Shown here: positions 47,282 through 57,834 of the stretch, in pieces
Layout of the letters: each line of letters opens with the position of its first letter
Numbering within the stretch: the first letter of the stretch is position 1
NCBI RefSeq assembly: GCF_900343155.1
Contig: NZ_OUNG01000001.1
Span: 124,001 to 188,000 of the forward strand
DNA length: 64,000 nucleotides
Source: Lactimicrobium massiliense
Lineage (GTDB): Bacteria > Bacillota_I > Bacilli_A > Erysipelotrichales > Erysipelotrichaceae
Direction of reading: 5' to 3'
The notes under the pieces: model-generated
The model's input: only the letters and a program-made list of their open reading frames with translations
What the model was told of the DNA's origin: nothing
Database searches by the model: none
Program-made: the position numbers and the translations under genes

Positions 47282-47847
47282 ACCGCTGTGCCATTCCTTT
47301 CTATCTGTAGATTATTCAGAATCATCCCGGGGCCCTTTGCCGTCAGAGGTTACGATCCTCTGCTGTAGGCTTATCCTCCCTTTCGGACTATCCGAACATT
47401 GCGTATAGTGGGGCACACTATACAAACATTAGGTCCTTCGCTCCACTTCCGTTACAGAAGCTTCATCACTACTATGACCTCAGCTGACTTCCTGCGATAG
47501 ACCTTTATCCGACCAGATGATAACGATAGCTGTTTAAAAGCGTCTCGGTTTCCCTGTGTTTAGGTTCATCTGTCCGCAGGATCTCTCGGGGTAAGACACA
47601 CATCTGTAATTTCCATAGCTTCCTGATTTACCGGTCGGCTTTACGTTTGTCTTTTGGACTTCAGCTTGCATAGCAGCCTTATCCGCCTTATGGCCTCAAT
47701 CAGGTTTCTGTACGTAAGCTCAGAAATATGCTAGCTACTGCTTTCGCTCTGGGTTATTCACCCTCGGCTGGTAGTTCACTTCGCTTGGCGACAAATACCC
47801 GCGGCCTGCCTCTATTGCAGGCTAGATGTGTGCCATGCCCGACACAC
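47282..47847 (-). ncRNA. Group II intron ribozyme, domains I to III and start of IV
   Basis: A 566-base non-coding stretch forming the 5' part of the intron RNA. It is GC-richer and full of short complementary segments, such as the opening GTGTGTCGGGCATGGCACAC hairpin and the GCCTGCAATAGAGGCAGGC hairpin close behind. It holds no gene. I did not resolve the exon-binding sequences. Confidence 0.8.
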
Positions 47848-56342: not shown

Positions 56343-56370
56343 TTGACACACCAGCTTCATTTTGTATAAT
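56343..56370 (+). promoter_or_regulatory. Strong promoter of the MATE gene
   Basis: Perfect -35 TTGACA (56343-56348), 16-base spacer, perfect -10 TATAAT (56365-56370). It is the best consensus promoter in the window and produces a leader of about 95 bases. Confidence 0.88.
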
Positions 56371-56376
56371 ACAGCC

Positions 56377-56469
56377 GAAAAAACACGAGTGGATTTTTCC
56401 GGATGAACAATCACCTTTTCGCCACACGACATCAGGCCATGTGGATTTTTTTTGGCCAAAAGGAGGGAT
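56377..56469 (+). promoter_or_regulatory. Structured leader of the MATE gene (possible riboswitch or attenuator)
   Basis: The leader can form mutually exclusive structures. A hairpin CCACA (56422-56426)/TGTGG (56440-56444) followed by ATTTTTTTT looks like a terminator. CCTTTTCGCC (56414-56423) is complementary at nine of ten positions to GGCCAAAAGG (56454-56463), which contains the start of the SD. A first stem, CCGAAAAA/TTTTTCCGG, lies upstream. It fits no riboswitch family I can name. Confidence 0.6.
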
Positions 56470-56472
56470 ATG

Positions 56473-57834
56473 ATGCAGGGAAATACAATGAAAGAGCGGC
56501 CTTTGGTACCGCTGATACTGACCATGACCATTCCGATGATGCTGTCAATGCTGGTTAACAGTCTTTATAACATTGTCGACAGTTTTTTTGTGGCGAAGAT
56601 GGGTGAGGATGCAATGAGCGCATTATCACTGGTATATCCCATCCAGAACCTGATCGGGGCTGCTGCGATTGGCTATGGTGTCGGCATCAATGCCATCATT
56701 TCGTTTTATCTTGGTGCCGGAAAGCAGAAAAAGGCAGATCAGGCTGCTTCACTTGGCATGCGGCTTTCGGTTGTGCACGGCCTTGTACTTGGCATACTGG
56801 GAACTCTTGTCATGCCAGGGTTTCTGGCCATGTTTACAGACAATGCGCAGATTATTTCTTATGGTGTGCGCTATGCCGTTGTGGCGTTTGCTTTCAGCTT
56901 TGTCAGTAACAGCGGCATTGCCTTTGAAAAAGTGTTCCAGGCTGTGGGACAGATGAATGTGACAGTGGTATCCCTGGCAGCAGGATGTCTGTTTAATATC
57001 GTCATGGATCCTGTCCTGATCTTTGGCATTGGCTTCTTTCCCAGAATGGGCATGGAAGGTGCAGCTCTGGCAACCGGTCTTGGCCAGATGGTAAGCCTGC
57101 TGATCTACATCATCCGCAATCACCGCCGCCCGCTGCCTGTACATGTTGGCATGCACCGCTGCAAAGACGATGCAAAGATGGCCGGAAGAATCTATGCTGT
57201 GGGTATTCCGGCCACGTTGAATCTGGCGCTTCCATCCCTTCTGATCACGTGCCTCAATGGCATTCTTGCCCGGTTTGCGCCGGTCTATATTCTGGTGCTT
57301 GGCATTTATTACAAACTGCAGACATTCCTCTATCTGCCTTCCTCCGGCATCATTCAGGGTATGCGGCCCCTGCTTGGCTTTAACTATGGTGCCCAAGAAT
57401 ATGACCGTGTGAAGAAGATCATCTCGATTGTGCTGGTCATGATATTGATTCTGATGGGTGCCGGCACGTTCCTTTTCATGGCATATCCTGACTGGCTGAT
57501 GGGCCTGTTTACATCCAATACAGAAACCATCCGGGCTGGCAGCCAGGCATTGCGCATCATTGCTGCAGGCTTCATTGTATCGGCTGTTTCCGTGACCGCC
57601 TCTGGTGCTCTGGAAGGTTTATCCAAGGGCACCCAGTCATTGTGGATTTCTTTATTCCGGTATGTGATTCTGATTGTGCCGCTCGCCTTCCTTCTGTCAC
57701 ATCTGTTTGGCGCGGCAGGTGTCTTCCATGCCTTCTGGGTGAGTGAAGCACTCAGTGCTGTCATTTCCTGGCTCATCATGAAAAAAGCAGTGCCCGGCGG
57801 ATCCGCTGAAAGCACTGCTGTTATCGAACAGTAA
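56473..57834 (+). CDS. MATE-family efflux transporter
   Basis: 453 residues with twelve membrane segments in two related halves. It shows the MATE N-terminal pattern MTIPMMLSMLVNSLYNIVDSFFV and repeated motifs such as GFNYGAQEYDRVKK. These proteins export drugs or metabolites using sodium or proton gradients. AGGAGG lies six bases before the ATG at 56473; the ATG at 56470 is also possible. Strong promoter and structured leader suggest induction by a ligand. The stop is directly adjacent to the end of the convergent HAD gene. Confidence 0.9.
   Translation: MQGNTMKERPLVPLILTMTIPMMLSMLVNSLYNIVDSFFVAKMGEDAMSALSLVYPIQNLIGAAAIGYGVGINAIISFYLGAGKQKKADQAASLGMRLSVVHGLVLGILGTLVMPGFLAMFTDNAQIISYGVRYAVVAFAFSFVSNSGIAFEKVFQAVGQMNVTVVSLAAGCLFNIVMDPVLIFGIGFFPRMGMEGAALATGLGQMVSLLIYIIRNHRRPLPVHVGMHRCKDDAKMAGRIYAVGIPATLNLALPSLLITCLNGILARFAPVYILVLGIYYKLQTFLYLPSSGIIQGMRPLLGFNYGAQEYDRVKKIISIVLVMILILMGAGTFLFMAYPDWLMGLFTSNTETIRAGSQALRIIAAGFIVSAVSVTASGALEGLSKGTQSLWISLFRYVILIVPLAFLLSHLFGAAGVFHAFWVSEALSAVISWLIMKKAVPGGSAESTAVIEQ

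Follow-up and report, generated by a model that had tools for sequence, protein, structure and literature searches.

A structured leader ahead of a MATE transporter gene in Lactimicrobium massiliense belongs to a widespread, apparently uncatalogued RNA family

The leader in the window

The window, i.e. the whole stretch of 64,000 nucleotides from Lactimicrobium massiliense that was analysed, contains a gene for a MATE family efflux transporter preceded by a compact leader (Table 1). A sequence-only reading of this DNA had placed a near-consensus promoter before the leader, and the promoter is indeed there, with TTGACA (56343-56348) and TATAAT (56365-56370) on either side of a 16-nt spacer and every consensus position matched. 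The predicted transcript start should lie immediately 5' of the A-tract. The 5' arm of stem P1 consists of GUGG (56389-56392) lengthened by CG (56386-56387) past an A-A mismatch, and the CCACA strand at 56422-56426 serves both as the 3' arm of P1 and as the 5' arm of the terminator. Because of this shared arm, P1, as the proposed antiterminator, and the terminator are mutually exclusive. Elsewhere in the window, two group II intron models of Rfam (D1D4-3 and D1D4-1) matched the minus strand at 47433-47765.

Table 1. Parts of the leader and the gene downstream of it, in window coordinates.
Feature	Position	Strand	Basis or comment
Sigma-70-type promoter	56343..56370	+	12/12 consensus positions
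Conserved A-tract, RNA 5' end	56378..56383	+	proposed pseudoknot or U-A-U triplex strand
P1 5' arm	56386..56392	+	covariation in family; fold of window copy
First U-tract	56394..56398	+	YUUUU in family
P2 hairpin GG-A-UGA / UCACC	56401..56415	+	P2 segments fold better than shuffles
Second U-tract and conserved YG (UUUUCG)	56416..56421	+	leader comparison
P1 3' arm: CCAC 56422-56425 and CG 56427-56428	56422..56428	+	
Intrinsic terminator CCACA / UGUGG 56440-56444, U8 56446-56453	56422..56453	+	weak copy
Shine-Dalgarno GGAGGG	56462..56467	+	precedes start codons 56470/56473
MATE family efflux transporter	56473..57834	+	TIGR00797 above cut-off; PF01554

The three overlapping pairings described in the sequence-only reading were all found in the window sequence, and they fared differently in comparison. 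The CCACA/TGTGG stem followed by eight T is present as described. In the proposed early stem, the A-tract can join the first U-tract, but a conserved A-tract, possibly docking on the U-rich strands, is the better reading of this part. The pairing thought to hide the Shine-Dalgarno sequence also exists, since CCTTTTCGCC (56414-56423) can pair with GGCCAAAAGG (56454-56463) at 9 of 10 positions with one C-C mismatch, but it is no conserved element: the contiguous pairs between the second U-tract segment and the Shine-Dalgarno region range from 4 to 9 across 76 family members without any pattern, as a plain count with no shuffled control. As the family shows no pattern in it, this pairing was left out of Table 1, and the functional switch of the leader is better read as P1 versus the terminator.

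The putative aptamer of the window copy folds at -8.0 kcal/mol, with a P1 of GUGG/CCAC and two further pairs beyond the A-A mismatch, whereas its terminator has 5 bp and reaches -5.0 (MFE) or -4.3 (centroid) kcal/mol, compared with -19.6 and -22.8 kcal/mol for the terminators of two homologues. The weakness of the terminator next to a P1 region that folds at -8 suggests that the window copy may be leaky or partly decayed. As a single sequence, the window leader folded no better than chance (z -0.18; 76 of 200 shuffles folded equally well or better). The claim that the leader is unlike the recognised classes agrees with the covariance search of Rfam 15, in which no family reached its gathering threshold at the leader, either in the window or in a permissive scan of 13 other members. 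Among the highest sub-threshold scores over a leader were those of the trpB motif (23.9 bits, cut-off 59) and IMPDH (27.6 bits, cut-off 95.4); the trpB motif (RF04312), like one named in a 2024 survey, is already included in Rfam 15. With the lone fold uninformative and no Rfam match, the question was decided by comparison.

Leaders of related MATE genes

A search for related loci with the MATE protein gave no relative, and the matches of a DNA similarity search of relatives lay mostly inside the MATE gene. When 120 related genomes were screened with this protein, matches of 50-58% identity were obtained at five loci (L019-L023). Since one of these (L023) begins at a contig end, four orthologues with upstream DNA were available, and together with the window they make five genes of the subfamily that we label MATE-I (this label and MATE-II were coined in this analysis). 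The leader was common to all five of these genes, which belong to the order of the window. Its parts follow each other in the orthologous leaders as A-tract, GUGG, AUUUUU, small hairpin, UUUUCG, CCAC, second partner GUGG and U-run. In the leader of genome G034, GUGG/CCAC/UGUGG is altered to GUGA/UCAC/UGUGA, i.e. all three strands carry the matching change. The leader of another orthologue (genome G070; L022/L075) has an aptamer with AUGG/CCAU, and its terminator is absent.

A model of the leader (R2) run over the same 120 genomes found strong copies in eight, among which were all six genomes with a MATE-I orthologue. In the remaining two, the copy lies ahead of a GNAT gene (G002) and of an EamA gene (G041). 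In G100 the copy precedes a nitroreductase gene, with the MATE-I gene located where a contig begins. The match in G012 looks like chance.

Nine more distant MATE loci (37-42% identity) gave no significant match to the leader, and most of them bear another one. In a second conserved leader (L024-L043, e.g. L033), which stands ahead of MATE genes only 37-42% identical to that of the window, AGCUAUAGAUUUCUCUAUUUCUGAUUAUAAAUAGACAUCUAUAGCU followed by U7 makes up a terminator hairpin whose interior (UUUCUGA..UAUAAA) is strongly conserved. The one example scanned had no significant Rfam match, and this leader is possibly another uncatalogued regulatory RNA. Two further loci (L044 and L046) have a third leader in common, CCGGTGACCCATACCGG ... 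CTTTGCATAAAACAT ... GAAACTATC ... terminator, roughly 50-150 nt before the MATE gene, and it had no Rfam match at E 1.

Extent of the family

A model (R1) built from five leaders and holding P1 only was run over 392 genomes, where it marked 26 places. We judged 13 of them genuine: eight before MATE genes (including the window and G034), one before an EamA gene (L088) and four before nitroreductase genes. The other 13 were taken as chance, judged by their context. A pattern scan of the order returned mostly chance matches, among which six genuine leaders were recognised. The pattern scan with one genome per species (84,980 species) gave at least 119 stretches; 80 loci from it were listed, and 73 of these were judged genuine. 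The remaining seven (L117, L118, L135, L139, L147, L149 and L152) were dropped as chance before the later counts. An automatic terminator test was passed by 67 of the 80 listed loci.

According to the record titles, the loci judged genuine come from Bacillus, Neobacillus, Brevibacillus, Paenibacillus, Clostridium, Lachnospiraceae, Faecalibacterium and Megasphaera, and also from Acholeplasmatales, Olsenella, Thermophilibacter, Collinsella and others. Among the matches listed, the core is kept across Bacilli, Clostridia and Coriobacteriia, and its carriers include many bacteria of gut and soil. In 28 whole genomes from listed loci, R1 gave 31 copies at E 0.01 or better, usually one copy per genome, which indicates that the signal is specific. 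The leader in the window belongs to a widespread, apparently uncatalogued RNA family.

Searches by gene homology, in which no RNA pattern was used, recovered the same association. The EamA protein had 23 matches in 60 relatives of a Bacillus, and 20 of them carried the leader; the three misses were two homologues at 40-46% identity and one broken gene. In the latter (L275), which has three stop codons, the aptamer is gone and a terminator remnant is left upstream, i.e. gene and leader have decayed together. The nitroreductase had 21 matches in 121 genomes of one Coriobacteriia family. The leader was found at 13 of them, namely at every full-length close relative (13/13), and the matches that lacked it were two shorter tandem copies and six distant homologues. 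A second leader copy pointing in the opposite direction occurred at 10 of the 13 nitroreductase loci. At a similar locus, L134 (1057-1253), two motif copies stand back to back, with the nitroreductase (P1 GCGG/CCGC) and an EamA transporter downstream.

For MATE-I, a further search covered 242 genomes from the order that includes Merdimonas (by our reading, Lachnospirales). Among the five matches, two had the leader directly upstream and two had it before a preceding MATE-II gene. The fifth (L290) lies near a contig edge; a leader is found in its genome at another contig end, followed there by the same repeat, so that this gene and leader are likely linked. The leader scan of this set is a lower bound, in which 23 first-look candidates were scored per genome, and four rows with E 5e-4 or worse were left out of its count.

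Structure and covariation

Two alignments were evaluated, A3 with 57 members and A4 with 35 distinct members that all came from the gene-homology sets. In both, four of the five pairs of P1 showed changes on both sides. The covariation score of P1 was 0.111 in A3 and 0.258 in A4, against 0.069 and 0.119 for shuffled alignments, and none of 500 shuffles reached the observed score; both alignments had been fitted to the P1 model, which biases the test in favour of P1. Slid controls scored lower than P1 in A4. In A3 the +2 control had a higher covariation (0.137 vs 0.111), yet it paired only 69% of the cells, compared with 92% for P1. Over 84 distinct members, P1 was GUGG/CCAC in 71, GCGG/CCGC in 6 and AUGG/CCAU in 3, with GUGG/CCGC (2), GUGA/UCAC (1) and GUGG/CCAU (1) as rarer forms. 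In 12 of the 13 members that depart from GUGG/CCAC, the 3' arm of the terminator still fits the 3' arm of P1 (11 matches found by script and that of G034 by eye). P1 is short, with 4-6 bp.

The P2 segments of the 84 members folded at a mean of -2.26 kcal/mol, whereas the shuffled mean was -0.43 kcal/mol and none of 300 shuffles was as low. Terminators with 5 bp or more, beginning in the 3' arm of P1 and running into a T-rich tail, were found in 74 of 83 members (shuffled mean 7.4, maximum 15), and those with 9 bp or more in 69 of 83 (shuffled 0.5). Thus, in 74 of 83 members the expression platform shares a strand with the putative aptamer.

The conserved letters of the core are the A-tract, GUGGAYUUUU and UUUUYGCCAC. 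AAAA was present in the A-tract of 83 of the 84 distinct members, a figure that is partly fixed by the search pattern and is seen in the gene-homology leaders as well. The first U-tract read [AC]YUUUU in all 84, by construction in the pattern-found ones. At the Y positions beside the two U-tracts we observed the combinations U/C (52), C/C (21) and C/U (11), and U/U never; this bias may reflect a tertiary contact or mere descent. The A-tract and the U-tracts are nearly invariant, so that A/U pairing offers no covariation to score. An A-tract and two U-tracts around a short stem would fit an H-type pseudoknot with U-A-U triples. A -10-like box lies no more than 22 nt upstream of the A-tract in 66 of 83 members, and 56 of these 66 have a -35 box with at least 4 of 6 positions, against 9 of 82 at a control position.

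At the level of sequence, comparison confirms that the window leader is real and structured, as shown by the orthologous leaders, the covariation of P1, P2 and the terminators. The idea of a structured leader of ligand-sensing type ahead of a MATE gene gains support from this conservation and covariation. The sequence-only reading had named the lack of covariation or conservation among related leaders as the result that would speak against it, and the opposite was found.

Genes downstream of the leader

The first gene was classified at 91 places among the matches listed (73 listed pattern loci and 18 others, with near-identical copies counted): MATE-I 44, EamA 26, nitroreductase 11, MATE-II 2, GNAT 1 and other 7. 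Five of the seven other places end within 242 nt, before a gene can be read. Pfam assigned one example of each family to MatE, EamA, Nitroreductase and GNAT. Operons join these families, as in nitroreductase-MATE-II-MATE-I (L122), in MATE-II-GNAT-MATE-I (L132) and also at L168. The leader is therefore associated with several unrelated gene families of one theme, detoxification. Such a group of unrelated proteins sharing one theme is the classical mark of a riboswitch and argues against a gene-specific attenuator.

At L116, an intact-looking copy with a terminator is followed, some 75-90 nt past the aptamer, by a glycoside hydrolase gene. No other gene of this type occurred among the matches listed; it is either a rearrangement or a new regulon member. 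The gene downstream at L137 encodes a YitT-like protein. Both genes, as identified by our reading, are at odds with the detoxification theme.

Proposed mechanism and its alternatives

We consider it likely that the leader represents an uncatalogued family of riboswitches acting by transcription attenuation and would be switched ON by a toxic small molecule. The A-tract would form the start of the RNA. With ligand bound, it would combine with P1, both U-tracts and P2 into a compact aptamer, probably a pseudoknot of the H type containing U-A-U triples, in which P1 keeps the CCAC strand and the polymerase could continue into the MATE gene. Without ligand, CCACA would pair with the downstream UGUGG, forming an intrinsic terminator before U8, and transcription would stop. 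The candidate ligand is a toxic small molecule that may be exported (MATE, EamA) or modified (a nitroreductase-like flavoenzyme, a GNAT acetyltransferase), and its accumulation would turn the switch ON. This polarity is suggested by the position of the antiterminator and the induction logic of pumps. The weak terminator of the window copy, the orthologue without a terminator and the shortness of P1 speak against this explanation.

The main rival, which we regard as improbable, is antitermination by a conserved RNA-binding protein that stabilises P1, the RNA itself binding no small molecule. BglG-type proteins stabilise antiterminators at their own sites, and a shared-strand architecture of antiterminator and terminator would look identical under such control. 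However, Bacilli, Clostridia and Coriobacteriia all keep the core, which stands ahead of unrelated genes, and no regulator gene was seen downstream in the translated stretches of selected loci. Still smaller is the chance that a ribosome stalled on a leader peptide changes the folding, as happens in leaders inducible by antibiotics. In its favour, MATE proteins pump drugs, and the window does hold an open frame (MNNHLFATRHQAMWIFF..., ATG at 56403). Across the family, though, an ATG occurs in 32 of 83 aptamers and is missing from 51, only 30 of 83 have a frame of at least 5 codons, and the aptamer lies near the predicted transcript start, where there is little space for a ribosome site. The stalled-ribosome option left open by the sequence-only reading thus appears unlikely.

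That the leader is a divergent guanidine-IV or Gd4v riboswitch is highly unlikely: although MATE and GNAT genes and terminator-based control are common to both in the consulted parts of PMC7736828 and PMC9788692, the conserved core here is upstream of the terminator and shares its 5' arm, the terminator loops vary in sequence and length, and sugE and transaminase genes were absent from the first genes classified (five places ended before a readable gene). We give the least credence to a constitutive leaky terminator that is kept by descent and senses nothing. The weak terminator of the window copy would suit it, but the identical core ahead of non-homologous genes and the way in which P1 and the third strand have changed in compensation argue against it.

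Returning to the riboswitch, we lean, with less assurance than for the switch as such, towards an undescribed class in Bacillota and Coriobacteriia whose compact A-tract/two-U-tract aptamer would sense a toxic, perhaps gut-relevant compound and switch on an export-and-modification regulon (MATE, EamA, nitroreductase, GNAT). If this is right, an abundant riboswitch class is added, and a common substrate is suggested for pumps and enzymes that so far go merely by the names MATE, EamA, nitroreductase or GNAT. The guanidine precedent illustrates that orphan switches can bring to light a whole part of bacterial chemistry that had escaped notice. Ligand screening can proceed directly from the alignments and coordinates.

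Comparison with known systems

No description of the leader family was found in the 5.39 million open-access papers searched, nor in the consulted parts of PMC9788692, PMC7736828, PMC11611296, PMC11109978, PMC8632094 and PMC7266159. An earlier description elsewhere is possible, because subscription papers, preprints and supplements were outside the scope of this search.

In guanidine-IV and Gd4v, according to the consulted parts of PMC7736828 and PMC9788692, the loop of the terminator hairpin holds the conserved nucleotides of the binding site, and a pseudoknot connects it to a hairpin further upstream; guanidine-IV acts as an ON switch, and the most frequent genes are sugE (guanidine-IV) and transaminase (Gd4v). 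Like guanidine-IV (GGAM-1) and Gd4v as described there, our family has a short leader, an intrinsic terminator and MATE and GNAT genes. Their pocket, however, is formed by two pseudoknotted hairpins, the second of which is the terminator, whereas in our family the aptamer lies ahead of the terminator and the two have the terminator's 5' arm in common. The distinction was drawn by reading those descriptions. GGAM-2 to GGAM-6, like the motifs from the surveys of 26 and 50 genomes, are also candidate riboswitches or structured RNAs that precede genes for transporters or metabolism. In the parts consulted, the taxa given for GGAM-2 to GGAM-6 differ from those of the leader family. A term search of the main texts of the two surveys found no EamA, efflux, multidrug or nitroreductase.

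SAM-II and preQ1-II are pseudoknot/triplex aptamers. Rfam shows no sequence relation between them and the leader, and the triplex proposed here is putative, but a short stem surrounded by A-rich and U-rich strands could adopt a fold of that type. The yjdF (azaaromatic) riboswitch differs, in the parts of its description consulted, in having a tRNA-like aptamer, translational control and a position almost exclusively before yjdF, and its Rfam model had no match at the leader in the window or in 13 other members. As a sensor of diverse nitrogen-containing aromatic compounds, it is nevertheless the probable analogue of this leader in role.
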